From: Thermococcus cleftensis
GTDB lineage: Archaea > Methanobacteriota_B > Thermococci > Thermococcales > Thermococcaceae
DNA: 64,000 nt
Direction of reading: 5' to 3'
Assembly (NCBI RefSeq): GCF_000265525.1
Contig: NC_018015.1
Coordinates: forward strand, 558,001-622,000
The notes under the pieces were generated by a model. It did not search any database, was not told where the DNA came from, and saw only the letters and a list, made by a program, of their open reading frames with translations. Of this stretch, positions 18,571 through 40,314 are shown in pieces. Within the stretch, counting starts at the first letter, position 1; each line of letters starts with the position of its first letter. The position numbers and the translations under genes were made by a program.

Positions 18571-19953
18571 TCAGAGCCCCTCCGCCCCTTTCAGCCTTTC
18601 GAAGTCCCCCAAATCCCAGGCGAAGTAGCCATCTTCCCTCAGCTTCTCTTTGTCTTTAATCCTCCTCGCCACCAAGCCATAGTTCTTCTCCCACCCATCA
18701 AGACCCACAAGCCCAGCCTTTCTTTCAAGGTCCTTCAAAATCCCACGTGCTTCCCTCTCCCTCAGGCTTTTCCACTTCACCTCCACAAACAGCGCCTTCC
18801 TCTCCCTCTCGTTCAGAGCCACTAAATCGATTTCTTCTCCTCTGTGCCACCAGCGGCCTATTTTGGTGAACCTGAACGGTAACTTTCCGGCCCTGTTCAT
18901 CTCCAGGAGGAACTCCCTGGCGATGCCCTCGAAGGTGAAGCCGAGGTAGCGGTTGAAGCTCCGCTCGAAATGTTCAATAGCCACATCCGGAATGCCGAGC
19001 TCGATTTCCTCCTTGAATGGGTGGACGAAGGTGTAGTAGAAGGCAAAGTAGTTGTCCTTTATGAAGTAGCGGGAGTTCCTCCGCCTCTTCTTTGCCGTGG
19101 CCGTGACCGGCAGTTCCCTCCCAACGATGCCGAGGTTTATCAGTATGCTCAGGTAGCGGGTCAGCTTCGAGCCGTCAATTTCCGTCGCGGTCTTCAGCTC
19201 GTTGAATGAGCGGTAGCCGTAGCTTATTGCCTCAAGTATCGTGTTGTAGGTGCTCAAATCCCTGAGCTCGTAGCGGAGCAGGTACTCAGCTTCCTCGTAG
19301 AGAAAACCCCTGCCAAAGAACTCTCTCCGTACGTTCTCTTCAGGCGGAAGCGAGGGGTCGAGGCGGAGGAGGTACTCCGGAACACCGCCCACCGCGCCGT
19401 AAACCTTGACGTCATCTTCGAGGCTGTAACCCGGGAAGAACTCCCCCACGTGGCGGAACTTTAAGGGCTGAACCTTCAGGGAGAGCGTCCTCCTGCCGTA
19501 GATCGGGCTCCCGTAGGAGGTCAGCTCCTCCATCATCGAGACGCTTGAGCCGCAGAGGACAAGGCTGCCCTTCCCCCCGAAGTCCCAGTACTCCTGCAGG
19601 ACGCCGAGGATTCTCGGGTGGTTCCTGACCAGCACCTGAAACTCGTCGAATATCACCACGACTCCTTCGGGAAGCCGCTCAAAAAACTCCTCGAAGGAGC
19701 TGACCGGGTGTCTGAGGAGAGAGTCATCCCCCGTCAGCGAGAAGAGCTTTGCGTTGAGGGACTTTAAGGTTTCCCTCGGCTCTTCCTCCTTGCACAGGTG
19801 GTAGAGGGTTTCGAAGCCCTTCGAGGCCTCGATGAGAAGCCGCGTCTTCCCGACTCGCCTCCTTCCGTAGACCACAATGAGGGCGCCCCTTTCAAATGCC
19901 CTCCGCAGGGTCGCGATTTCCTCCTCCCTGTCAACGAACTTTTGCGTAATCAT
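18571..19953 (-). CDS. Archaeal ATPase with C-terminal DUF234 domain
   Basis: 460-residue member of the archaeal-type ATPase family (STAND-related). The N-terminal motif FVDREEEIATLRRA is followed by Walker A YGRRRVGKTRLLIEA (about residues 29-43). Walker B is VVVIFDEFQVLVRN, with sensor-type LVLCGSSVSMM after it. A winged-helix region (SYGYRSFNELKTATEIDGSK) precedes the C-terminal domain, which has a PD-(D/E)XK-like core (GEEIDLVALNERERKALFVE VK). The family is common and multi-copy in Thermococcales; its role is unknown. Start ATG 19953 lies close to the expected transcription start. Confidence 0.85.
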   Translation of the reverse strand: MITQKFVDREEEIATLRRAFERGALIVVYGRRRVGKTRLLIEASKGFETLYHLCKEEEPRETLKSLNAKLFSLTGDDSLLRHPVSSFEEFFERLPEGVVVIFDEFQVLVRNHPRILGVLQEYWDFGGKGSLVLCGSSVSMMEELTSYGSPIYGRRTLSLKVQPLKFRHVGEFFPGYSLEDDVKVYGAVGGVPEYLLRLDPSLPPEENVRREFFGRGFLYEEAEYLLRYELRDLSTYNTILEAISYGYRSFNELKTATEIDGSKLTRYLSILINLGIVGRELPVTATAKKRRRNSRYFIKDNYFAFYYTFVHPFKEEIELGIPDVAIEHFERSFNRYLGFTFEGIAREFLLEMNRAGKLPFRFTKIGRWWHRGEEIDLVALNERERKALFVEVKWKSLREREARGILKDLERKAGLVGLDGWEKNYGLVARRIKDKEKLREDGYFAWDLGDFERLKGAEGL

Positions 19954-22948: not shown

Positions 22949-24751
22949 TCACTCACCCCCCGCATCGACTATCTCGATGGCGTTGAACCGGCACACCTCG
23001 TAGCAGGTCCCGCACTTGATGCACTCGTCCTGGTTGATGACGTGGGGCTTGAGCCTCTCGCCGCTTATCGCCTTCACCGGGCAGAAGATCGCACATGCCG
23101 TACAGCCGGTGCACCTGTCGGCGATTATGACGTACCTGATGAGCGGCTTGCAGACCTTGGCCGGGCATTTTCCTTCGATGTGCGCTAAGTACTCGTCCCT
23201 GAAGTAGCGGAGCGTTGTTAGAACTGGATTTGGTGCCGTCTGGCCGAGGCCGCAGAGAGAGCCGGCCTTGACCTGGTAGGCGAGCCTTTCGAGCTTCTCA
23301 AGGTCTTCCCCGGTGGCCTTGCCCTGGGTGAACTTGTCGAGGATTTCCCACATCCTCTTTGTTCCGAGGCGGCAGAAGGTGCACTTCCCGCAGGACTCTT
23401 TCACTGTAAAGTCCAGGAAGAACTTGGCGACATCGACCATACAGGTGTCCTCGTCCATGACCACCATTCCGCCGCTCCCCATTATTGCACCGGTTGCGTT
23501 GACGCTCTCGTAATCAACGGGAGTGTCAAAGAGGTACTCCGGGATACAGCCACCTGAAGGACCGCCGAGCTGGACGGCTTTGATTTTCTTGCCAGTCTTC
23601 GTCCCGCCGCCGATATCGTAGAGTATCTCCCTCAGGGTCATGCCCATCGGAACCTCGACGTTTCCGCCGTGCTTTATCTTGCCTGAGAGGGCGAAAACCT
23701 TCGTTCCTTTGCTCTTCTCCGTTCCGATTGAGGCGTAGGCCTCCCAGCCGTGCTTTATTATCCACGGCACGTTTGCCCACGTCTCGACGTTGTTGATGTT
23801 CGTGGGCTTGCCCCAGAGGCCTTTTTGAGCCGGGTACGGCGGCCTCGGCCTCGGCATTCCGCGCCTGCCCTCTATCGAGGCTATCAGAGCGGTTTCCTCA
23901 CCGCAGACAAAGGCCCCGGCACCTTCCTTGATGACGATGTCGAAGGAGAACCCCGAGCCAAGGATGTTCTCGCCGAGGAATCCCCTCTCGCGGGCCTGCT
24001 TCAGCGCTATCTTCAATCTCCTTATCGCGAGCGGGTACTCGGCGCGGACGTAGATGAAGCCCTTCGTCGCTCCGATCGCGTAGGCTCCAATTATCATGCC
24101 CTCTATTACCCTGTGCGGGTCGCCCTCAAGGACGTTCCTGTCCATGAAGGCTCCGGGGTCACCTTCGTCGGCGTTGCAGACGATGTACTTGACGTCCCCT
24201 TTAGCCTCGCGGGCGAACTTCCACTTCAGTCCCGTCGGGAAGCCCGCTCCGCCCCTTCCCCTAAGGCCTGACTTCATGATTACGTCTATGATCTCCTCGG
24301 GCTCCATCTTGAGGGCCTTTTTGAGGGCCTCGTAGCCGCCAGCAGCTATGTACTCATCGATGTTCTCGGGGTCAATGTATCCCGAATTCTCGAGCACTAT
24401 CTTCTTCTGCTTGGCAAAGTAGCCGTCAACGTCCCACGTCTTTCTTTCCCCGTTCTCCCACCAGTCGCGCTTGACCACCCACTCCTCTACTGGTTTTCCA
24501 TTAATGACGTGCTCCTCTATAATCCTCGGAACCTTCTTCGGGTCGACGTGGCCGTAGGTGATTATCTCGTCCTCGGTGATGATGTCCACGAGAGGCTCGC
24601 GGTAGCACATGCCAACGCAGCCGACTATCTTGAGCTTCACATCAAGGTCTCTCCTCTCAAGCTCGGCCTTTATCGCCTCGTACGTCTCTTTGGCTCCAGC
24701 CGCTATACCGCAGGAGTTCATGCCGACCGCTATGGCCCTGATTTCAGACAT
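22949..24751 (-). CDS. NuoF-like NADH/FMN iron-sulfur subunit (HydB type)
   Basis: 600-residue homologue of the NADH-binding subunit of complex I and of bifurcating hydrogenases. The N-terminal thioredoxin-like domain carries CGIAAGAKETYEA and CVGMCYREP for a [2Fe-2S] cluster. The FMN/NADH domain has SGLRGRGGAGFPTGLKWKFA and NADEGDPGAFMDRNVLEGDP. The [4Fe-4S] N3-type site is ESCGKCTFCRLGTKR ... SLCGLGQTAPNP. The C-terminus adds two ferredoxin clusters (CTGCTACAIFCPVKAI; CIKCGTCYEVCRFNAI). This order equals that of HydB in NuoEFG-type hydrogenases. It overlaps the NuoE-like gene by 8 nt. Confidence 0.92.
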   Translation of the reverse strand: MSEIRAIAVGMNSCGIAAGAKETYEAIKAELERRDLDVKLKIVGCVGMCYREPLVDIITEDEIITYGHVDPKKVPRIIEEHVINGKPVEEWVVKRDWWENGERKTWDVDGYFAKQKKIVLENSGYIDPENIDEYIAAGGYEALKKALKMEPEEIIDVIMKSGLRGRGGAGFPTGLKWKFAREAKGDVKYIVCNADEGDPGAFMDRNVLEGDPHRVIEGMIIGAYAIGATKGFIYVRAEYPLAIRRLKIALKQARERGFLGENILGSGFSFDIVIKEGAGAFVCGEETALIASIEGRRGMPRPRPPYPAQKGLWGKPTNINNVETWANVPWIIKHGWEAYASIGTEKSKGTKVFALSGKIKHGGNVEVPMGMTLREILYDIGGGTKTGKKIKAVQLGGPSGGCIPEYLFDTPVDYESVNATGAIMGSGGMVVMDEDTCMVDVAKFFLDFTVKESCGKCTFCRLGTKRMWEILDKFTQGKATGEDLEKLERLAYQVKAGSLCGLGQTAPNPVLTTLRYFRDEYLAHIEGKCPAKVCKPLIRYVIIADRCTGCTACAIFCPVKAISGERLKPHVINQDECIKCGTCYEVCRFNAIEIVDAGGE

Positions 24752-25208
24752 CGAGCTTCCCCTCCCTGAGCTTTCTCATCAGCTTCCTCACCTTGTCAGG
24801 GTTCAGCTTGCCGAAGACCTTCTCGTTTATCATTATCACCGGGGCAAGGCTGCAGCAGCCGAGGCAGGCGACGCGCTCCAGCGTTACAAGGCCGTCCCCG
24901 GTCGTCTGACCCTCCTCAATCCCGAGCTCCTCGGTTATGGCCTGCGCTATGTTGACGGCACCGTTGACGTGACAGGCAGTTCCGTGGCAGATCTTGACGA
25001 CGTACTTCCCGAGGGGCTCGAAGCGGAACTGGGCGTAGAAAGTCGCGACCCCGTAGACCCTGCTGAGGGGAATCCCGAGGTAGTTCGCAATCTCTTCAAG
25101 GGCCTCCCTGGGAAGGTAGCCAAAGCGCTCCTGGGTTCTCTGGAGAAGAGGGATTAGAGAACTCGGCTCCGGCGGATAAGAGCGCATGTAATCGAACGAG
25201 GCTTCCAT
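24744..25208 (-). CDS. NuoE-like [2Fe-2S] thioredoxin-fold subunit
   Basis: 154-residue homologue of the 24-kDa complex I subunit (HydC in bifurcating hydrogenases). Helical N-terminus LIPLLQRTQERFGYLPREAL, then the cluster ligands CHGTACHVNGA and CLGCCSLAPVIMIN, four cysteines in the family pattern. First gene of the minus-strand operon NuoE-NuoF-NuoG/GltD. ATG 25208 follows GTGGTGATGCGAG. The promoter TATA (CTTATAAAC, 25252-25260) is next to a SurR-type site. Confidence 0.93.
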   Translation of the reverse strand: MEASFDYMRSYPPEPSSLIPLLQRTQERFGYLPREALEEIANYLGIPLSRVYGVATFYAQFRFEPLGKYVVKICHGTACHVNGAVNIAQAITEELGIEEGQTTGDGLVTLERVACLGCCSLAPVIMINEKVFGKLNPDKVRKLMRKLREGKLDV

Positions 25209-25251: not shown

Positions 25252-25325
25252 GTTTATAAGCGTGCACTAAAGTACAAGTTTGTAACATCTGGTTGGTAAC
25301 CATTCGTTTGAAAAATTCTTAAATC
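25252..25325. promoter_or_regulatory. Divergent promoter with tandem SurR-type binding sites
   Basis: GTTTGTAAC at 25278-25286 and GTTGGTAAC at 25292-25300 are two perfect GTTn3AAC boxes separated by exactly 5 nt, the extended consensus described for the sulfur-response regulator SurR of Pyrococcus furiosus (GTTn3AACn5GTT). The minus-strand TATA box is at 25252-25260 and the plus-strand TATA-like TTCTTAAATC at 25316-25325. The sites therefore lie 16-18 bp upstream of both TATA boxes, an activating position for each operon. Confidence 0.8.
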
Positions 25326-25374
25326 AATTCTTTACAAACTTAAAAATGTAATCCCATTTAAGGCGGTGATGCCC

Positions 25375-26379
25375 TTGAGATATATAAAACTGCCCTCCGA
25401 AAACTTTGGGAAGTTCTTCAAGTCCCTTGAGGCCTGGGGCAGTGTGTATGCCCCGGTCAAAAGAGGGGGTATCTATTCTTTCCAGGAAGTGCACGACCCG
25501 GCGGAGATAGCGCTGGACTACAACAGAACCATGCTTCCGCCGAAGAAGTTTTTCTTCAGACCCAAAGAGGCTATTCTCAGGCTGAAGAACGGCCACTGGG
25601 AAGAAAACCTTGAAGCGGAACCGACGGTTCTCTTCGGGCTCCACTCCTGTGACATTCACGGTCTTAAGATACTCGACAGGGTATACCTCGACGAGCCGGC
25701 CGATCCGTACTACAAGAGCAGGCGCGAGAAGACTTTAGTAATAGGAATAAGCTGTATGCCCGATGAGTACTGCTTCTGCAAGAGCCTCGGAACGCACTTC
25801 GCGATGGACGGCTTCGATCTGTTTCTCCACGAGCTTCCCGACGGCTGGCTGGTCAGAATCGGGAGCGTCCGCGGCCACGAGATAGTCTGGGAGAACGGTG
25901 AGCTGTTCGAGGAGGTGACCGACGAAGACCTCGCCAACTTCAAGGAGTTCGAGGAGAGGCGCGCCAACTCCTTTCAAAAGGAGCTTCCGCAGGAAGGCCT
26001 CGCCGACATGCTCGATTTGGCATACAACAGCCCGGTGTGGAAGAAGTACGCGGACATCTGTCTCGCCTGCGGCAACTGTAACATGGTCTGTCCGACCTGC
26101 CGCTGCTACGAGGTCTGCGACCGCTGGGTCGACGCCTACAGCGCGGTGAGGGAGAGACGCTACGACTCCTGCTTCATGGAGAACCACGGACTCGTTGCTG
26201 GAGGCCATAACTTCAGGCCCACGCGGTTGGACCGCTTCAGGCACCGCTACTACTGCAAGAGCTACTTTGACCCCTCCTCGGGCTACAACTGCGTCGGCTG
26301 CGGTCGCTGCGACGAGTTCTGCCCGGCGAAGATAGAGCACGTTAAAGTCCTCGACGAAATAAGGGGGTCTCTGGAATGA
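25375..26379 (+). CDS. hyhB: Soluble [NiFe]-hydrogenase (group 3b) beta subunit
   Basis: About 334-residue iron-sulfur subunit that relays electrons between the NAD(P)H-binding gamma subunit and the catalytic core. MPDEYCFCKS lies in the N-terminal half. The C-terminal half has two ferredoxin-type sites: CLACGNCNMVCPTCRCYEVC and CVGCGRCDEFCPAKIEH. GHNFRPTRLDRFRHRYYCKS is conserved in the family. The start is probably TTG 25375 (MRYIKLPSENF), 4 nt after GGTGAT and matching Pyrococcus HydB starts. GTG 25366 and ATG 25369 lie within the ribosome binding site. First gene of a four-gene operon with 4-nt overlaps. Confidence 0.92.
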   Translation: MRYIKLPSENFGKFFKSLEAWGSVYAPVKRGGIYSFQEVHDPAEIALDYNRTMLPPKKFFFRPKEAILRLKNGHWEENLEAEPTVLFGLHSCDIHGLKILDRVYLDEPADPYYKSRREKTLVIGISCMPDEYCFCKSLGTHFAMDGFDLFLHELPDGWLVRIGSVRGHEIVWENGELFEEVTDEDLANFKEFEERRANSFQKELPQEGLADMLDLAYNSPVWKKYADICLACGNCNMVCPTCRCYEVCDRWVDAYSAVRERRYDSCFMENHGLVAGGHNFRPTRLDRFRHRYYCKSYFDPSSGYNCVGCGRCDEFCPAKIEHVKVLDEIRGSLE

Positions 26380-27242
26380 ATCCCTACGAAAGCCACCCTG
26401 CGAGAATCCTTGAGGTAAGGGACCTGACACCGCGGGAGAAGCTCTTCACCCTGCGCTTCCTTGACGAAGATCTGAACGAGAGGTTCACATTCAGGCCCGG
26501 GCAGTTCGTCATCGTTGATGTCCCGGGCTTCGGCGAGTTCCCGATAAGTCTGTGCTCGCCCCCAACGAGGAGTCCCATCCAGCTCTGCATAAGGAAAGCG
26601 GGCAGGATGACAAAGTTCATCCACAAGATGAAGGAAGGGGACGTAGTAGGAATCCGCGGGCCCTATGGCAACGGCTTCCCGATGGAGAAGATGGAGGGCT
26701 CGAACCTGGTTCTTGTGGCAGGTGGCCTTGGAATGGCTCCCCTCCGCTCGGTGCTCTGGTATGCCATCGACACCGGCAAATACGAGCACGTCTGGCTCTT
26801 TTACGGAACCAAAGCCTACGAGGACATCCTCTTCCGCGACGAGATAATTCACCTCCTGAAGCACGGTTCCGCAATGGGCTGCACGGTCAAGCTGGCCTAC
26901 GAGGTCGAAAGCCCATCGTGCATCTACCTAGAGCAGGGGTTCTCGGACAGGGTCTGCAGAGGCGTCGTTACCGACCTCTTCAGGGGAGAGGAGTTTGACG
27001 TTAACAGGGCATACGCCCTCATCTGCGGCCCGCCGGTCATGTACCGCTTTGTCATAAGGGAGCTCCTTGACAGGAAGCTCTCACCTGGCAGGATTTACAT
27101 GACCCTTGAAAGGCGCATGCGCTGCGGAGTCGGCAAATGCGGCCACTGCGTCGTCGGAACAAGCGTCTCCATGAAGTACATCTGCCAGGACGGCCCGGTC
27201 TTCACCTACTGGGACGCTCTCTCCACGAGGGGGTTGATATGA
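26376..27242 (+). CDS. hyhG: Soluble [NiFe]-hydrogenase gamma subunit (FAD/NAD(P)-binding)
   Basis: 288-residue ferredoxin-NADP reductase-like subunit where NADP(H) exchanges electrons. FAD-binding RPGQFVIVDVPGFGEFPISL, nucleotide-binding LVAGGLGMAPLRSVLWYA, a CGPPVMYRFV motif, and a [2Fe-2S] site RMRCGVGKCGHCVVG near the C-terminus. ATG overlaps the beta stop (ATGA). Its stop overlaps the next gene. Confidence 0.94.
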   Translation: MNPYESHPARILEVRDLTPREKLFTLRFLDEDLNERFTFRPGQFVIVDVPGFGEFPISLCSPPTRSPIQLCIRKAGRMTKFIHKMKEGDVVGIRGPYGNGFPMEKMEGSNLVLVAGGLGMAPLRSVLWYAIDTGKYEHVWLFYGTKAYEDILFRDEIIHLLKHGSAMGCTVKLAYEVESPSCIYLEQGFSDRVCRGVVTDLFRGEEFDVNRAYALICGPPVMYRFVIRELLDRKLSPGRIYMTLERRMRCGVGKCGHCVVGTSVSMKYICQDGPVFTYWDALSTRGLI

Positions 27243-27979
27243 TGGACAAGCTCAAGCTGGGGGTTTTCGAGCTTACCGACTGCGGCGGCTGTGCCCTGAA
27301 CATGCTCTTCCTCTACGAGAGGCTCTTCGACCTCCTTGAGTTCTACGAGATAACCGAGTTCCACATGGCAACCAGTCTGCGCGAGGGGAACCACTACGAC
27401 GTCGCCCTCGTTACCGGAACGGTCTCGACCCAGCGCGACCTGAACCTGCTCAAGGAGGCGAGGAACCACTCCGATTACCTGATAGCACTCGGAACCTGCG
27501 CAACACACGGCTCAGTTCAGGCCAGCGTTGAACTGCCAATCAGAGAAAAGCTGAAGGCCGTTTACGGAGATGAAGGCAATCCGATGCGTGCCCTCGATTC
27601 AAAGCCGGTGGTGGAGTACGTGGCAGTTGATTTCGCGCTCCCGGGCTGTCCTTACGACAAGAACGAGGTCTATCAAGTGCTCCTGGACATCGCCAAGGGC
27701 ATCGAGCCCGTTAAAAAAGACTATCCTGTCTGCCTCGAGTGCAAGCTCAATGAATACGAGTGCGTGCTGGTGAAGAAGGGCCTTCCCTGCCTCGGCCCGA
27801 TAACCTACGGCGGCTGCAACGCCGTCTGCGTGCGCTCGGGTCTGGGATGCATCGGCTGCCGCGGTCCGCTGCCCGGAGAAGTGAACCCTGCGGGCGAATA
27901 CGAGGTACTCAGGGAGCTCGGCTACGATGACGAATACATCATAAGGAAGTTCAAGACCTTCGCGAGGTGGGAGCCATGA
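27239..27979 (+). CDS. hyhS: Soluble [NiFe]-hydrogenase delta (small) subunit
   Basis: About 246-residue small subunit carrying the cluster chain next to the Ni-Fe site. The proximal-cluster motif ELTDCGGCALNMLF starts at residue about 12. Further cysteines occur at LGTCATHGS, ALPGCPYDKNEV, CLECKLNEYECVLVKKGLPC and GCNAVCVRSGLGCIGCRGP. ATG 27239 and ATG 27242 are both possible; the first overlaps the gamma stop codon. Confidence 0.93.
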   Translation: MMDKLKLGVFELTDCGGCALNMLFLYERLFDLLEFYEITEFHMATSLREGNHYDVALVTGTVSTQRDLNLLKEARNHSDYLIALGTCATHGSVQASVELPIREKLKAVYGDEGNPMRALDSKPVVEYVAVDFALPGCPYDKNEVYQVLLDIAKGIEPVKKDYPVCLECKLNEYECVLVKKGLPCLGPITYGGCNAVCVRSGLGCIGCRGPLPGEVNPAGEYEVLRELGYDDEYIIRKFKTFARWEP

Positions 27980-29223
27980 TCATCGAGACTAGGGAGTTCA
28001 CCCGCGTGGAGGGCAACGGCAAGGCGGAGATCGTCATAGAGGACGGGGAGGTAAAGGACGTCAGGCTTAAGATCATCGAGGGGCCGCGCTTTTTTGAGCT
28101 TCTAACCCTTGGCAGGCATTACTACGACGTGCCCGATCTCGAAGCGAGGATATGTGCCATCTGCTACCTCTCCCACAGCGTCGCCTCGGTTCTGGGCATT
28201 GAGAGGGCTTTCGGCGTGGAGGTTCCGGAGGAGATTCAGCTCATCAGGGAGCTTGGCCTGATAGGAGAGTTCCTTGAGAGCCACTCCCTCCACCTCTACC
28301 TCCTAGTTGCCCCCGACCTGTTCGGCTATCCGGACGCCATAAGAATGGCCACGAAGCACGGAGAGCTTGTAAAGGAAGGCCTGGCCCTCAAGTCCTTCGG
28401 GAACAGGATAAGGGTCATGGTGGGCGGCCGGGAGATACACGGTATAAACGTCAAGCCAGGCGGCTTCGGCAGGTGGCCCCTCCCCGAGGAGCTGGAAGCG
28501 GTAGAAAGGGAAGCGGATGGATTGCTGACAATAGCCAGGCGCTCGGTTCGACTCTTCTCAGAGATAGGGCCCTACGGCGGAAAGGCAGAGCTCTTTGTGG
28601 CGACCGACGGTTACCTCACGGGGGAATCCCTTATCTCAAACATCGAGAAGAACTTCCACTACACCGAGCGGATAGAGGAGCGCCCACTCGTTTACAGCTT
28701 TGCGAAGCAGAGCCTCTACAACGGAAGACCCTTCCTCGTGGGATCGCTCGCAAGGCTCCTCCTGAAGGGGGATTCCCTAACGCCCCTTGCCAGGCGGCTC
28801 TTCGAGGAGCACAGGGAAAAACTGGAGACCGGCTACGTCAGCTACAACAACCTTGCCCAGGCGATAGAGCTGGTTTACTCCCTCGAACGGGCGAAAGAGA
28901 TAGCGAAGACCCTCCTCGATGGGGGCATCGAAAGGGAGAACGTCCCTGTTGAAGCCAGGGAGGGCGAGGGGATAGGCTACGTGGAGGCGCCCAGAGGCGT
29001 GCTCATTCACCACTACAGGATAGACGGAAACGGAAGCATATCCTACTCCAACATAATAACCCCAACCGCGCTGAACCACGCGATGATGGAGCGCGCGCTC
29101 CTCTGGGAGGCGAGGGAGCTTTACGGCGAGGTTCCAGAGGAGGAAATGCTCGGGAGGCTTGAGGAGACGGTAAGGGCCTTTGACCCCTGCATCTCCTGCT
29201 CGGTGCATTTCGCGAAGCTCTGA
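27976..29223 (+). CDS. hyhL: Soluble [NiFe]-hydrogenase alpha (large, catalytic) subunit
   Basis: 415-residue catalytic subunit that oxidises or evolves H2. The Ni ligands are in RICAICYLSHS near residue 55 and DPCISCSVHFAKL at the very C-terminus. The short tail after the second CxxC is the substrate of a maturation protease, which is not encoded nearby. TREFTRVEGNGKAEIVIEDG is the family N-terminus. The start follows GAGGTGGGAGCC and overlaps the delta stop. In known Thermococcales enzymes this four-subunit complex is cytosolic and uses NADPH. Confidence 0.95.
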   Translation: MIIETREFTRVEGNGKAEIVIEDGEVKDVRLKIIEGPRFFELLTLGRHYYDVPDLEARICAICYLSHSVASVLGIERAFGVEVPEEIQLIRELGLIGEFLESHSLHLYLLVAPDLFGYPDAIRMATKHGELVKEGLALKSFGNRIRVMVGGREIHGINVKPGGFGRWPLPEELEAVEREADGLLTIARRSVRLFSEIGPYGGKAELFVATDGYLTGESLISNIEKNFHYTERIEERPLVYSFAKQSLYNGRPFLVGSLARLLLKGDSLTPLARRLFEEHREKLETGYVSYNNLAQAIELVYSLERAKEIAKTLLDGGIERENVPVEAREGEGIGYVEAPRGVLIHHYRIDGNGSISYSNIITPTALNHAMMERALLWEARELYGEVPEEEMLGRLEETVRAFDPCISCSVHFAKL

Positions 29224-33745: not shown

Positions 33746-34240
33746 ATGTTCACGGGGAGGGCGGTCATAGCTGTCAAGGTGCTAAAGCCCTTCGGCGACT
33801 GGAAGACCGGGGATATAGTGCTCGTGGAGGACTGGAAGGCCAAGGAGCTTTGGGAGTCGGGGATAGTTGAGATAGTGGACGAGACGGACAAGGTGATAGG
33901 CGAGATAGACAAGGCGATAGCCGAGGAGAGGGGGAGCGAACCCATAACCGCCCTTCCCGCAGGACTGTACGAGAGGGCCGAGTTTTACATGTATTACCTC
34001 GAGAACTACGTGAGGCTGAACGCCGGTGAAGGAATAGAAACCATAAACGTCAAGCTCACCAAGCTCGCCAACCTGAAGAAAAAGCTTGAGCATCTCAAAA
34101 CGATACGGTTCAACAAGATTCTCAAGGCGGTCATGCTCAGGCCCAACAGCCTCGAACTCCTCTCCCGCCTTTCGCCGGAGGAGAGGAGGGTTTACCTCCA
34201 GCTCTCAAAGATAAGAAACGAGTGGCTCGGTGAGGACTGA
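33746..34240 (+). CDS. GINS complex subunit (Gins51/GINS15 type)
   Basis: 164-residue subunit of the replicative helicase accessory complex (Cdc45-MCM-GINS). A small beta N-terminal part (VLKPFGDWKTGDIVLVEDW) and a helical A domain with LPAGLYERAEFYMYYLENYV and IRFNKILKAVMLRP are seen. The gene immediately precedes mcm and its stop overlaps the mcm start (TGATG), which supports the call. Start follows AAAGGTGGTGAG; a TATA-like AGGTTTATTAG lies near 33704-33715. Confidence 0.82.
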   Translation: MFTGRAVIAVKVLKPFGDWKTGDIVLVEDWKAKELWESGIVEIVDETDKVIGEIDKAIAEERGSEPITALPAGLYERAEFYMYYLENYVRLNAGEGIETINVKLTKLANLKKKLEHLKTIRFNKILKAVMLRPNSLELLSRLSPEERRVYLQLSKIRNEWLGED

Positions 34241-37200
34241 TGGACAGGGAGGAGATGATCGAGCGGTACGCGAGGTTTCTAAGGGAGTACGTGGACGACG
34301 ACGGAAAGGAGGTCTACCTCAACAAGCTGAAGGATCTGCTAACCGTCACGCCAAAGCGCTCCCTCGCGATAGACTGGACCCACCTCAACTCCTTCGATCC
34401 CGAGCTGGCGGGGGAGCTGATTGAGAACCCCGAGGAGAGCATTCTGGCGGCGGAAGATGCGATACAGATAATTCTCCGCGAGCCTCCGTTGCTCGTCGAG
34501 AGAGAGTTCAAGGTCCACGCGAGGTTTTACAACCTCCCCCACACGCTACTCGTCAAGGAGCTGGGTAGCGAGCACATAAACAGGCTGATTCAGGTCGAGG
34601 GCATCATCACGCGCGTTAGCGAGGTCAAGCCCTTCGTCGAGAAAGCGGTATTCGTCTGCAAGGACTGCGGCAACGAGATGGTCAGGCTCCAAAGGCCCTA
34701 CGAGAACCTCGTCAAGCCTGCCAAGTGCGACGCCTGCGGCTCAAGGAACATAGAGCTCGACGTGGAGAAGAGCCGTTTCATAAACTTCCAGAGCTTCCGC
34801 CTTCAGGACAGGCCCGAGAGCCTCAAAGGGGGCCAGATGCCGCGCTTCGTTGATGCAATCCTGCTCGATGACATGGTGGACACGGCACTGCCGGGCGACA
34901 GGGTTCTTGTCACGGGAATCCTGCGCGTTATCCTGGAGCAGAAGGACAAGAGGCCGATATTCAAGAAGGTTCTCGAGGTGAACCACATCGAGCAGCTCAG
35001 CAAGGAGATAGAGGAGCTTGAGATCTCGCCAGAGGACGAGCAGAAGATACGGGAGCTGGCAAAGAGAAAGGACATCGTCGATGCGATAGTTGACTCAATC
35101 GCCCCGGCAATCTGGGGCCACAGGACTGTGAAGAAGGGCATAGCTTTAGCTCTCTTCGGTGGCGTGCAGAGGACGCTCCCCGATGGAACGAAGCTAAGGG
35201 GAGAGAGCCACGTTCTGCTGGTCGGAGATCCTGGTGTTGCAAAATGTGTGGACTACCACACGAAGGTTCTGCTCGCTGACGGGAGCCTGAGGGAGATTGG
35301 AGATGTAGTGGAGGAGGCCGTGAGGAGGGCAGAAGAAGAGGGAAAGCTCAAAAAGGTAGACGATGGTTTTTATGCCCCAATAGACCTTGAGCTGTACGCT
35401 CTCGACGCGAAAACCCTGAAGGTCAGAAAGGTTAGAGCCAACATCGCCTGGAAGAGGACCGCTCCCGAACGGATGTACCGCATAAGGACGGCGAGCGGAA
35501 GGGAGATAAGGGTAACACCCACCCATCCGTTTTTCACCTTCGAGGACGGGCAGTTCAGGACGAGGAAGGCAGAGGAGCTTAAAGAAGGCTGTTTCATTGC
35601 GGTTCCAAGGGCTATTCCAGCTGGTGGCAGGCCCGTAAAGCTTTCAGAGGTACCCATTGAAAAGCCCAAAACTGCAAAGAGCAGATTACAGCTTCCAGAG
35701 TTTGCCGATGAGGAGTTCTGGTACGTGATTGGGCTCCTGACAGGAGAGGGGTACACCCAGAAAAGAGGAAGTAGTGCAACTGTGTATTTCACGAACAACG
35801 ACGACAGGCTTATCGAAAAGGTCTACGAGTACTTCAAAAAGATCGGATTAAATCCAACCATCAGAGATCCTCACAAAGGAAAAACCGCCAAGGAAGTCTA
35901 TGCGAGCGGAATAGAACTCTACCAACTCATGAAGTGGCTCGGTATCGCACAGAATTTATCAGAGAAAAAAGTACCCCCCCAGTTGTTCGGAGCAAGACTG
36001 GAGGATGTTAAAGCGTTCCTTAGAGGCTACTTCGACGCCGAAGCCACAGTGGACCGGAAAAGACCAAAGATCACCGTTGTTTCTGCCTCAGAAGAGCTTC
36101 TTAAAGGCGTTCAGCATCTGCTCCTCAGGTTTGGCATAAAATCCCAGCTCCACGAAACCAGATCCCGTGCAACAAACGGGAGAATGAAAACCGCCAGAAA
36201 GTATTACCGCCTATTCATTACTGGAGAAGATGCCGTGAGATTTAAGGAACTCATTGGGTTAGAAGTGTCGAGGAAACACAAAATTCTTGAACAGGTTACT
36301 CAGGGCATGAAGCCAAACACCAACGTGGACATTGTTCCCGGAGTTGGCAAGCTTCTGTGGAAGCTTCGGAGTGAAGCAGGATTAACCCAGAAGCAAATGG
36401 GAATTAACCGCTCAACTTACATGCACTACGAGCGCGGTGACAGACTGCCCAGCAGAGAGAAGCTCAAAATAGTAGTAGAAGCCCTTAAACAACACTTATC
36501 GGAGTCCAAAGAGTTAAAAGTTCTTGAACTCTTAGCCAGCTCGGATATCTTCTGGGACAGGGTCGTTGAAATCGAAGAGTACAACCCAGAGCATCCCTGG
36601 GTTTATGATCTCCAGGTTCCAGAGCACCACAACTTCATAGCCAACGACATCTTCGTCCACAACAGCCAGCTCCTCCGCTACGTTGCCAATTTAGCGCCGA
36701 GGGCAATCTACACGAGCGGAAAGAGCAGTTCGGCGGCCGGTTTGACGGCCGCAGCTGTCCGGGACGAGTTCACAGGATCTTGGGTTCTGGAGGCTGGTGT
36801 TCTCGTCTTAGCAGATGGTGGCTTCGCCTGCCTGCACCCCGATTCGAGGGTATTGGCAGATGGGAAGTACGTTCGCATCGAAGACCTCTTCGAGCTTGAG
36901 AAATCCTACAAGGCGCTCTCCGACGGTCAGGTTGTGGACATTCAGGAGAAGGAGATGGGAGTTACCGCGCTAGATTTGGGAAGCATGAGGACGAAGGCTT
37001 CCACGGCCACGATAATCCGCAGGAAGCCCTGGAAAGGCGAGCTACTCAGGCTGAAGTTCCGCTCCGGCAACGAGGTAACCCTAACTCCAGACCACCTCCT
37101 GATAGACGGCCAGACCCTTGAGTGGAAGGAGGCAGAGAAGTTCAGGGTTGGAGACAAGGTAGTTGCCCCGCTAAAGCTTCCCTCGGTGAGAAACAGGGTT

Positions 37201-40200
37201 TACATACTTGACATCTTGCCGTCCACTTGGAAGATCAAACTGACTCCTGAGGAGAAAAGAGAGCTGAAGGCCGAAGTTCTTAAGAGATTTAAGAGCCTCG
37301 CTGAGTTCAACAGGAAGTACAACGTTTCGAGGGATTCCCTCTCCGGAAAGGGCTCTATAAGTGTTGGAAAGTTCAGGAAGATACTTCGTAAGCTGGGAAT
37401 CTATGATGAATGGCGCGAGAGGCCCCTAACGTATGGTCCGAACTATCGCAGGGAGCGCCTTAAAGTCGCGTACATAACCCCCGAACTCGCTTATTTCCTC
37501 GGCTTCCTTTACGGGGACGGGTGGATAAAACGGGACGGCTCGAAGGTTCACGTTCGCATAGTACAGTCAAAGGTACATAACCGGCAGATTGAGAACCTAA
37601 GGCGAGCCTTCAAGAGCTTCTACGATGGACAGCTGAGGGAGTACGAAAGGACCACGAGAAGCGAACTGGCGGGCAACGAGATAGAGAGCAACACGATTAC
37701 GTTCCACGTCAGCTCACCATTGCTCGCGTACCTCTACGAATACATTACCAAAGACAACTTCAGGAATGCATTCTCCTTGGACGACGAGGCCCTGAAGGCC
37801 TTTATCGCTGGGGCCTTGGACTCGGACGGCTGTGTGTCAATCAAGAGTAGCAAGAGGGGAAGTGTTGTTCACGTTGAGTTTCTGCTTTCGAACGACCTGG
37901 AGATGGACAGGGCCTTTGCACTCCTGCTCCGCAGGTTTGACGTATACGCACGCATTGTCCCTGGAAAGGGTGTGAATAGGATTCAGATAACAGGAAGAGA
38001 AGATGTAACAAACCTCCTTAACGCGATTAGGGCGTACAGCGTCAAGATTAAGGAAATACCCGTCAAAAAGCATCTCGTCTCGTCGAAGAGCGATAAAGTT
38101 CCCGCCGAACCCGTGAGTAGAATCGCAAGGGACATCATCGAAAGTGTCCCGGCTAAGCTACTACAGGAGCGGGGACTGTGGAGCACCGTTTATTCCTACG
38201 CCAAGGGCAGGTACCAGCCCAGCAGGATTCAGCTGAAAAAGCTCGTGGAGAAGCTCGGCGATGTTCTGAGTCCAGAAATCAGGATTAAGCTTGAAGTCCT
38301 CGCTACGAGGGATTACTTCCTCGATGAAATCGTCTCCATCGAGCGCATTCCCTACGATGGCTACGTCTACGACCTCTATGTGCCGGGCGAGCACAACTTC
38401 CTGGCCGAGGGAATCATAGTCCACAACTGCATTGACGAGTTCGACAAGATGAGCGACAGGGATAGGAGCGCCATACACGAGGCACTGGAGCAGCAGAGCT
38501 ACCACCACGACTTCGAGCTTCTCTTAGCCGACGGCAGGAAGGTCAAGATAGGCGAGCTGGTCGATTCGCTCATCGAGGCCAACCGCGACCGGGTAATCCT
38601 CGGTAAAGACACCGAGATTCTGCCCGTTGATAACGTTTACGTTTTGGCCTACGACCTTGAGAGGAAGGAAATCGTCAGGGTCAAGGCCGACCGCGTGAGC
38701 AGGCACAAGGCTCCTGAGAAGTTCATAAGGCTGAGGTTCTCCAACGGAAGAGAGATCACTGTGACGCCGGAGCACCCGATAATGGTGTGGGAGAACGGGG
38801 AGATAAAGGAGAAGCCGGCCGCAAAAATTGAAATCCGCGATATCGTCCTCGGCGTTTCGAGGTATCCGCTGGAACTGCCCGAGGTGGAAGGGAGACGGTT
38901 CAGGGAGCGCAAAACCGCTGAGGACCGTCAGGACTACCTCTACTCCCTGGGTAAGGTCTCGAGGGTAAAGCGCGTCGCCGGAAGGCACGTTGTTGAAATC
39001 TCCGAGAGAAGGTTTCCAAAGGAAATAGTGAGCCATCTCAAGAAGGCCGCGAGGGTTCTCGGGGTCGTTCAGCTGCCGGAGGAACGGGCAAAGCTCTCAC
39101 GGCCTCTGGTCGGGGAGAGAGTTCTCAGGCCGTACCTCAACAGGGTCATGGAGAGGATCGCCCTGCTGGAGAGCCTCGCCGAGAGCGACCCGGCGGAGGC
39201 CGTTGAGCTACTGCCCAGGAGCAGGGTTTACGCCCTCACCGGGGTAACCGTTGATCACCTCAAAAAGAGGGCCGTGACGGGCGACAGGTGGGCGGTCTCG
39301 ACCATAAGGCTCCTCGTAAAGAACCTGCTCGAACAGGCTAAGGGGCATCTGGAAAGGTTCATGGAGTACTGGGACGGCAACGTGAACTTCCTGACGGTCA
39401 TCAAGGTCAAGGAGGTTCCAAACGACCGCTGGGAGTGGGTCTACGACGTAACCGTCGAGCCGTACCACCTCTTCGTCTCCCACGGGCTGGTTCTACACAA
39501 CACGATAAGCATCTCCAAGGCCGGAATAACGGCCACCCTGAACTCCAGGACCACCGTCATCGCCGCCGCGAACCCCAAGTACGGCCGCTTCAACCGCCAC
39601 AAGAGCCTCCCCGAGCAGCTCGACCTTCCACCCACACTGTTGAGCCGTTTCGACCTCATCTTCCTCCTCCTGGACGAGCCGGACGAGAAGGTCGACGCGA
39701 GCATAGCGGAGCACATACTCAAGGTCCGCAGGGGAGAGGCTGAGGTCGTGACGCCGAAGATACCCTACGACCTGCTCAAGAAGTACATCGCCTACGCGAG
39801 GAAGAACGTCCACCCCGTGCTGAGCAGGGAAGCTATGGACGAGATAAAGCGCTACTACGTCAGAATGAGGAAGGGCTTCAAGCGCTCCGGCGAGGAGGAG
39901 GGAGTCCAGCCGATACCGGTCACGGCGAGGCAACTGGAGGCTCTGATAAGGCTCAGCGAGGCCCACGCAAGAATGAGGCTGAGCGAGACGGTAACGCGGG
40001 AAGATGCCAGGGCGGCGATTCAGATAATCGAGGAGATGATAAGGAAGATAGCGACCGACGAGGAGGGAACGCTTGACATCTCGATACTCGAGGTCGGAAA
40101 GAGCTCCCGGAAGATAAACAAGATAGACAGACTCATCGACATAATAAAGAACCTCGAGTCGGAGGGCGAGTTCGGAGCGCCGGAGGACAAGGTGATCGAA

Positions 40201-40314
40201 GCGGCGAAGCAGGCGGGCATAGGCTCTGAGAACGAGGTGAAGAAACTCCTGAGCGACCTCAAGCGCGATGCCAGAATTTACGAGCCGAGGGCGGGCTTCT
40301 ACAAGGTCCTCTAA
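34240..40314 (+). CDS. mcm: Replicative MCM helicase containing three inteins
   Basis: 2024-residue precursor; removing the inteins leaves about 683 residues of MCM, which unwinds DNA at the fork. N-terminal domain with zinc site CKDCGNEM ... CDACGSRN (about residues 142-170). Walker A is GDPGVAK/S, Walker B CIDEFDKM, sensor region AAANPKYG, arginine finger SRFDLIF, and a C-terminal winged-helix domain (LDISILEVGKSSRKINKIDR onward). Inteins interrupt Walker A after Lys, the segment before Walker B (GGFA/CIDEF), and EALEQQ/TISIS after Walker B. All insertion points are in catalytic motifs, so the enzyme needs protein splicing to work. ATG overlaps the GINS stop. Confidence 0.97.
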   Translation: MDREEMIERYARFLREYVDDDGKEVYLNKLKDLLTVTPKRSLAIDWTHLNSFDPELAGELIENPEESILAAEDAIQIILREPPLLVEREFKVHARFYNLPHTLLVKELGSEHINRLIQVEGIITRVSEVKPFVEKAVFVCKDCGNEMVRLQRPYENLVKPAKCDACGSRNIELDVEKSRFINFQSFRLQDRPESLKGGQMPRFVDAILLDDMVDTALPGDRVLVTGILRVILEQKDKRPIFKKVLEVNHIEQLSKEIEELEISPEDEQKIRELAKRKDIVDAIVDSIAPAIWGHRTVKKGIALALFGGVQRTLPDGTKLRGESHVLLVGDPGVAKCVDYHTKVLLADGSLREIGDVVEEAVRRAEEEGKLKKVDDGFYAPIDLELYALDAKTLKVRKVRANIAWKRTAPERMYRIRTASGREIRVTPTHPFFTFEDGQFRTRKAEELKEGCFIAVPRAIPAGGRPVKLSEVPIEKPKTAKSRLQLPEFADEEFWYVIGLLTGEGYTQKRGSSATVYFTNNDDRLIEKVYEYFKKIGLNPTIRDPHKGKTAKEVYASGIELYQLMKWLGIAQNLSEKKVPPQLFGARLEDVKAFLRGYFDAEATVDRKRPKITVVSASEELLKGVQHLLLRFGIKSQLHETRSRATNGRMKTARKYYRLFITGEDAVRFKELIGLEVSRKHKILEQVTQGMKPNTNVDIVPGVGKLLWKLRSEAGLTQKQMGINRSTYMHYERGDRLPSREKLKIVVEALKQHLSESKELKVLELLASSDIFWDRVVEIEEYNPEHPWVYDLQVPEHHNFIANDIFVHNSQLLRYVANLAPRAIYTSGKSSSAAGLTAAAVRDEFTGSWVLEAGVLVLADGGFACLHPDSRVLADGKYVRIEDLFELEKSYKALSDGQVVDIQEKEMGVTALDLGSMRTKASTATIIRRKPWKGELLRLKFRSGNEVTLTPDHLLIDGQTLEWKEAEKFRVGDKVVAPLKLPSVRNRVYILDILPSTWKIKLTPEEKRELKAEVLKRFKSLAEFNRKYNVSRDSLSGKGSISVGKFRKILRKLGIYDEWRERPLTYGPNYRRERLKVAYITPELAYFLGFLYGDGWIKRDGSKVHVRIVQSKVHNRQIENLRRAFKSFYDGQLREYERTTRSELAGNEIESNTITFHVSSPLLAYLYEYITKDNFRNAFSLDDEALKAFIAGALDSDGCVSIKSSKRGSVVHVEFLLSNDLEMDRAFALLLRRFDVYARIVPGKGVNRIQITGREDVTNLLNAIRAYSVKIKEIPVKKHLVSSKSDKVPAEPVSRIARDIIESVPAKLLQERGLWSTVYSYAKGRYQPSRIQLKKLVEKLGDVLSPEIRIKLEVLATRDYFLDEIVSIERIPYDGYVYDLYVPGEHNFLAEGIIVHNCIDEFDKMSDRDRSAIHEALEQQSYHHDFELLLADGRKVKIGELVDSLIEANRDRVILGKDTEILPVDNVYVLAYDLERKEIVRVKADRVSRHKAPEKFIRLRFSNGREITVTPEHPIMVWENGEIKEKPAAKIEIRDIVLGVSRYPLELPEVEGRRFRERKTAEDRQDYLYSLGKVSRVKRVAGRHVVEISERRFPKEIVSHLKKAARVLGVVQLPEERAKLSRPLVGERVLRPYLNRVMERIALLESLAESDPAEAVELLPRSRVYALTGVTVDHLKKRAVTGDRWAVSTIRLLVKNLLEQAKGHLERFMEYWDGNVNFLTVIKVKEVPNDRWEWVYDVTVEPYHLFVSHGLVLHNTISISKAGITATLNSRTTVIAAANPKYGRFNRHKSLPEQLDLPPTLLSRFDLIFLLLDEPDEKVDASIAEHILKVRRGEAEVVTPKIPYDLLKKYIAYARKNVHPVLSREAMDEIKRYYVRMRKGFKRSGEEEGVQPIPVTARQLEALIRLSEAHARMRLSETVTREDARAAIQIIEEMIRKIATDEEGTLDISILEVGKSSRKINKIDRLIDIIKNLESEGEFGAPEDKVIEAAKQAGIGSENEVKKLLSDLKRDARIYEPRAGFYKVL
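35245..36663 (+). mobile_element. MCM intein 1 (LAGLIDADG homing-endonuclease type)
   Basis: 473 residues from Cys336 to Asn808 of the precursor, inserted between Lys and Ser of Walker A. Splicing block A is CVDYHTKVLLADGSLREIG; block B VTPTHPFFTF; blocks F/G VYDLQVPEHHNFIANDIFVH followed by N/S. Two dodecapeptide motifs, VIGLLTGEGYT and LRGYFDAEA, mark a homing endonuclease. Near the C-terminal side sits a Cro/C1-like helix-turn-helix segment (LWKLRSEAGLTQKQMGI). The DNA is visibly richer in A and T than the exteins. Confidence 0.93.
36829..38427 (+). mobile_element. MCM intein 2 (LAGLIDADG homing-endonuclease type)
   Basis: 533 residues from Cys864 to Asn1396, inserted between Ala and Cys of GGFA/CIDEF. 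Block A CLHPDSRVLADGKYVRIEDL, block B VTLTPDHLLIDG, endonuclease motifs YFLGFLYGDGWI and FIAGALDSDGCV, C-terminal VYDLYVPGEHNFLAEGIIVH then N/C. All residues needed for class 1 splicing are present. Confidence 0.94.
38497..39501 (+). other. MCM intein 3 (Ser-type, no recognisable LAGLIDADG motif)
   Basis: 335 residues from Ser1420 to Asn1754, inserted in EALEQQ/TISISKAG. Block A begins SYHHDFELLLADGRKVKIGE, block B is ITVTPEHPIMVW, and blocks F/G are WVYDVTVEPYHLFVSHGLVL then HN/T. It starts with Ser and is followed by Thr, so it uses oxygen nucleophiles. The roughly 170 residues between the splicing halves (PLELPEVEGRR to AKGHLERFMEY) show no dodecapeptide motif and may be a degenerate or different linker domain. 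Confidence 0.88.

Follow-up and report, generated by a model that had tools for sequence, protein, structure and literature searches.

Reduced SurR binds DNA and activates transcription from upstream of the BRE/TATA box, and sulfur oxidises its CxxC motif, releasing SurR (PMC8595942, PMC12162507). The short consensus is GTTn3AAC, and GTTn3AACn5GTT is the published extended motif, called the long motif below (PMC8595942, PMC12162507). The closest described sites are those of sulfhydrogenase II (SHII). Like T. cleftensis SHII, the SHII operon of T. piezophilus has a long motif upstream, in T. piezophilus 69 bp from the start codon; T. piezophilus NfnI, the locus tag of which neighbours SHII, has its own long motif at 72 bp, and the same study groups Nfn under negative control by SurR (PMC8595942). 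The T. barophilus shII operon carries canonical SurR motifs (PMC12162507), another likeness to the SHII promoter of T. cleftensis. In T. onnurineus, SHII, of which the gamma subunit was detected, was seen only without sulfur; SudA (TON_0057), a subunit of NfnI, was seen only when sulfur was present (PMC4463584). TON_0057 is three locus tags past the SHII cluster, TON_0052-0055.

The T. cleftensis locus differs from those of T. piezophilus and T. barophilus in that the divergent partner of SHII is Nfn-Bfu, and in having a three-box array with a fixed near-motif that faces the left TATA box. The type of site and the type of place were already known; the partner operon is new, and the array is unusually rigid.

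Results

The SurR box array

The window is the whole 64-kb stretch of T. cleftensis DNA that was analysed. Direct reading locates GTTTGTAACATCTGGTTGGTAAC at 25278-25300, halfway between two divergent promoters. The site reads GTTTGTAAC-ATCTG-GTTGGTAAC, an exact double box with the two GTTn3AAC units 5 nt apart, as an earlier note on this DNA had claimed, and a pattern search finds this single match within the window. The note had equated GTTn3AACn5GTT with the published SurR consensus, which agrees with both papers cited above, and the divergent TATA boxes are where it had put them. The two boxes that it described are exact; a third, GTTTGAAAA, which it missed, makes the array one of three boxes. 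These begin at 25278, 25292 and 25306, a period of 14 bp. The exact long motif occurs three times in the 157-bp spacer, twice pointing right and once left. The elements of the spacer are as follows.

25252..25260, minus strand: TATA box CTTATAAAC of the nfnCBA operon; core TTATAA in all Nfn-Bfu-type loci
25270..25286, minus strand: near-SurR long motif GTTACAAACTTGTACTT (GTTn3AACn5CTT), one mismatch; nfnC TATA core at 10 nt
25278..25294, plus strand: SurR long motif GTTTGTAACATCTGGTT, box 1 and the first triplet of box 2; exact match, kept in the genus alignment
25284..25300, minus strand: SurR long motif GTTACCAACCAGATGTT, facing the left operon (read 25300-25284); TATA core at 24 nt
25292..25308, plus strand: SurR long motif GTTGGTAACCATTCGTT, box 2 and the first triplet of box 3; shyB TATA core 10 nt downstream
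25306..25314, plus strand: third box; GTT invariant in 30 distinct sequences
about 25318..25325, plus strand: TATA box CTTAAATC of the shyBCDA operon, preceded by an A-rich BRE; near-invariant in the family

The first triplet of the third box completes a long motif and its A-rich end runs into the shy BRE; 25292-25314 matches the double box with one mismatch. On the 3' side of the shy TATA box, CTTTACAAAC might have been a SurR half-site that represses from downstream, a reading rejected because its AAC is AAT in some relatives; it is taken as part of the core promoter. Also 3' of this TATA box, CTTTACAAACTTAAA at 25330-25344 is strongly conserved in the genus and is perhaps the initiator region. 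Elsewhere in the window, a 2024-aa ORF (34240-40314) is an MCM replicative helicase with inteins (Intein_splicing and LAGLIDADG_3 in three stretches each).

The flanking operons

The right operon encodes SHII, and all four subunits exceed the curated equivalog cut-offs.

25375..26379, plus strand: shyB, SHII beta subunit; NF040829, 694.9 bits (cut-off 690)
26376..27242, plus strand: shyC, SHII gamma subunit; NF040830, 630.6 bits (cut-off 600)
27251..27979, plus strand: shyD, SHII delta subunit; NF040831, 493.1 bits (cut-off 460)
27967..29223, plus strand: shyA, SHII alpha subunit ([NiFe] catalytic subunit); NF040828, 772.7 bits (cut-off 700)

The listed ORF for shyB begins at GTG 25366. However, the match to the ShyB profile starts from residue 4, GGTGAT lies upstream (25365-25370, 5' of TTG 25375), and this TTG is kept in relatives; together these suggest that the start codon is probably TTG 25375. 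For shyD, the listed ORF is 27137-27979, and the profile match starts from its residue 39.

The left operon was described in the earlier note as NuoEFG-like. A NuoEFG complex-I module was rejected for it, since the 958-aa subunit scores 170.6 bits against TIGR01973, where the NuoG cut-off is 470, and has an NfnL/GltD domain. Its products instead match, over nearly their full lengths, the NfnC, NfnB and NfnA chains (C, B and A) of PDB 9n5u.

24744..25208, minus strand: nfnC (bfuC), NuoE-like, 2Fe-2S thioredoxin fold; PF01257; PDB 9n5u_C NfnC, 282.8 bits
22949..24751, minus strand: nfnB (bfuB), NuoF-like with extra ferredoxin domains; PDB 9n5u_B NfnB, 1268 bits
20089..22965, minus strand: nfnA (bfuA), 958 aa; PDB 9n5u_A NfnA, 1783 bits, residues 2-951

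NfnA combines a 2Fe-2S domain, an NfnL/GltD-like flavin domain and a NuoG-like Fe-S part. With a BfuB/BfuC core and a BfuA that has an NfnL-like flavin domain, the operon is, as judged by these matches, that of the electron-bifurcating transhydrogenase Nfn-Bfu (NfnABC). The T. sibiricus Nfn-Bfu (PMC9304861) and the Sporomusa StnABC (PDB 8oh5) likewise have three subunits with the same domain order, and the T. sibiricus enzyme couples NADPH oxidation to the reduction of ferredoxin and NAD (PMC9304861). PDB 9n5u is presumably this enzyme. By analogy, the T. cleftensis NfnABC would exchange electrons between NADPH and the ferredoxin and NAD pools. Downstream of the nfnABC operon, on the same strand, a gene at 18571-19953 encodes a DUF234/archaeal ATPase_2 protein.

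The regulator and its motifs in the genome

A search for surR elsewhere in the genome, proposed in the earlier note as a check, finds the gene (NF047699, E = 5e-120; structure match to 2qlz, PF0095, E 4e-93), and its product carries CTEC as the CxxC motif. It is located in the 353 kb region (L009), divergent from the gene for protein disulfide oxidoreductase (PDO). The surR/pdo spacer resembles the spacer studied here in that a long motif lies between divergent genes, in T. cleftensis as well; one long motif was found there, whereas the shy/nfn spacer has a 14-bp periodic array that faces both ways. Among the 94 family genomes, every one has a SurR match at E≤0.001, and 91 have one over the curated cut-off.

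The predicted site at 25278-25300 agrees with both the short and the long consensus. The exact double box occurs at two places in the genome and its reversed control pattern at one; given this one control match, the rarity of the pattern alone was rejected as proof. The only other exact double box (L002, G000:C1:1201624-1201646) lies 5' of a gene whose 231-aa product has no NCBIfam match. Genome-wide, the long motif is enriched about 3.7-fold, with 37 matches against 10 for the reversed control, and when the 157-bp spacer was shuffled 20,000 times with dinucleotides preserved, no shuffle contained three long motifs. Elsewhere in the genome, non-coding long motifs stand before SurR-type targets: they precede surR/pdo, hypF, a CbiM-type transporter, the formate dehydrogenase alpha subunit, an F420-hydrogenase-like alpha subunit and CoA-disulfide reductase. 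The SHI promoter has long motifs only when one mismatch is allowed.

Distance to the TATA box

TATA-like hexamers downstream of the 27 oriented non-coding motifs cluster at offsets 9-12 (10 cases, with 3 elsewhere in the range 0-49). The shy promoter has its TATA box at offset 10, and it is one of six genome matches to GTTn3AACn5GTT-n10-WTWWA, a pattern for which the control has none. When H (any base but G) is put at the first base of CTT, the n10 pattern has two genome matches and, again, none in the control. Because of this spacing, 25292-25308 was taken as the shy element and 25270-25286, with help from 25284-25300, as that of nfnABC.

The earlier note had the site upstream of both promoters, and it does lie upstream of both TATA boxes, where activation would be expected. 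The expected position upstream of BRE/TATA holds for shy at n10; on the left, n10 is found only with one mismatch, and the exact motif is at n24. What stands at the usual distance from the left TATA box is 25270-25286, with CTT for GTT, and not the perfect pair named in the note. Its spacing makes this near-motif a probable activator element of the left operon.

Conservation in related genomes

The family set comprises 60 SHII loci for which the start was found, and the long motif was sought within 260 bp. At least one long motif is kept in 59 of these 60 loci, the exception being L098; this count, like the others in this section, comes from related genomes, so the samples are not independent. 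Nfn-Bfu is divergent from SHII in 37 loci, in three genera, in which nuoE was seen, and in L051, where the contig ends. NfnI is divergent from SHII in 20 loci; the type rests on identified NfnS and NfnL in L073 and L075, and on similarity to an NfnL-like domain in the others.

The left half of the array follows this division. A 42-bp block, TTATAA-n10-[AG]AG-n5-GTTn3AACn5GTT, is present without an indel in 37/37 Nfn-Bfu loci with nuoE adjacent (36 by pattern, L061 by reading), by pattern also in L051, and in 0/20 loci of the NfnI type. In all 37, GTTn3AACn5CTT faces the nfnABC TATA box at 10 nt, with AAG (plus strand) kept. Because the search itself required some of these positions, independent evidence comes from the fixed spacing, from the fact that no locus was missed, and from columns that the search left free. 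In 30 distinct sequences, such columns do not vary at the second and third AAC bases of box 2 or at the GTT of box 3, while the n3 and n5 bases mostly have 0.3-1.0 bit. Boxes two and three persist in NfnI-type genomes of the genus.

Another genus has four loci (L072, L078, L081 and L082) in which NfnI lies beside SHII and GTTn3AACn5CTT is still present; these lack a TATA box at n10, as though a swap of the neighbour had been followed by decay of the left promoter. SHII-type homologues of archaea and bacteria outside the Thermococcales (e.g. L125, L126, L129 and L142-L144) have no long motif upstream, and in four such genomes no SurR match exceeds the cut-off.

Discussion

At the level of sequence, the array at 25278-25300 is confirmed as a real, conserved candidate SurR site. 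The array, its conservation in the family and the absence of the motif outside the Thermococcales make it very likely that SurR controls the shy operon, and activation would agree with the fall of SHII on sulfur in T. onnurineus (PMC4463584). SurR probably also activates nfnABC without sulfur; that the sign is the same as for shy, and that SurR binds and activates at this site, we infer. The reading that we consider probable, and that the earlier note had predicted, is a bidirectional SurR switch that activates shyBCDA and nfnABC when sulfur is absent. The spacer would then be a bidirectional promoter region with a 14-bp-period array of SurR boxes. Without elemental sulfur, reduced SurR dimers would occupy the array immediately 5' of each BRE/TATA box, and the transcription machinery would be recruited or stabilised by them at both promoters. 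Rightward, this would turn on shyBCDA (H2 recycling by the NADP-linked sulfhydrogenase II), and leftward nfnABC (electrons between NADPH and the ferredoxin and NAD pools). Once sulfur is present, SurR would be oxidised at its CxxC and would leave the DNA, and both promoters would fall.

Against co-activation, GTT is replaced by CTT in the element that stands at the usual distance from the nfn TATA box, and the exact motif that faces left is 24 nt away instead of 10 nt. A site between divergent promoters need not give both the same sign. SurR may activate shyBCDA only, with nfnABC unactivated or repressed and the operons independent or opposite, as SHII gamma and SudA (TON_0057) of T. onnurineus appear to be (PMC4463584); the placing of Nfn under negative control (PMC8595942) points the same way. 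NsoC of T. litoralis, named as an NADPH-dependent sulfur oxidoreductase, is listed in PMC10482914 as closely homologous to the 958-aa subunit, which would fit expression of nfnABC with sulfur. This alternative is nevertheless unlikely. GTTn3AACn5CTT-n10-TATA is fixed in every Nfn-Bfu locus and occurs in none of the NfnI type, which makes NfnI geometry a poor guide; with NfnI promoters arranged differently, the T. onnurineus NfnI case does not decide that of nfnABC. Nor, by eye, is there an obvious GTTn3AAC 3' of the nfn TATA box, where repression would be expected.

It is improbable that the conservation reflects two strong core promoters and the site of another regulator, and that SurR does not truly act on the left. 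Next to the nfn TATA box, the high conservation of GTGCACTAAAGTACA extends past the SurR triplets, and the conserved GTGCACTAAAG there could serve another factor, but the consensus triplets are invariant while the spacers vary, boxes two and three are retained in NfnI-type genomes of the genus, and homologues outside the Thermococcales lack the motif. EnfR was rejected as this regulator, its 36-bp site in T. onnurineus being unlike the array. A chance match is hardly credible: the genome counts of the 23-base double box and its reversed control would allow one, but the shuffles argue against it and the retention of the motif in 59/60 SHII loci refutes it.

The bidirectional switch would bring an electron-bifurcating transhydrogenase under a sulfur switch that is already known. 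A text search of Nfn-Bfu and StnABC papers, e.g. PMC9304861, found no statement on SurR control of Nfn-Bfu, and no regulation of this enzyme was found in the portion of the literature searched. The placement suggests a testable rule for the position of SurR: first the motif, then 10 nt, then the TATA box. With NfnI exchanged for Nfn-Bfu next to a hydrogenase promoter that stays constant, these loci offer a natural experiment in how a divergent archaeal promoter is rewired. More tentatively, adjacent SurR dimers on the 14-bp array may set SHII and Nfn-Bfu in a fixed proportion, the SurR element having been rebuilt when Nfn-Bfu replaced NfnI; this is possible, though less likely than not. If true, SurR would control the balance of NADPH, NADH and ferredoxin besides H2 metabolism.
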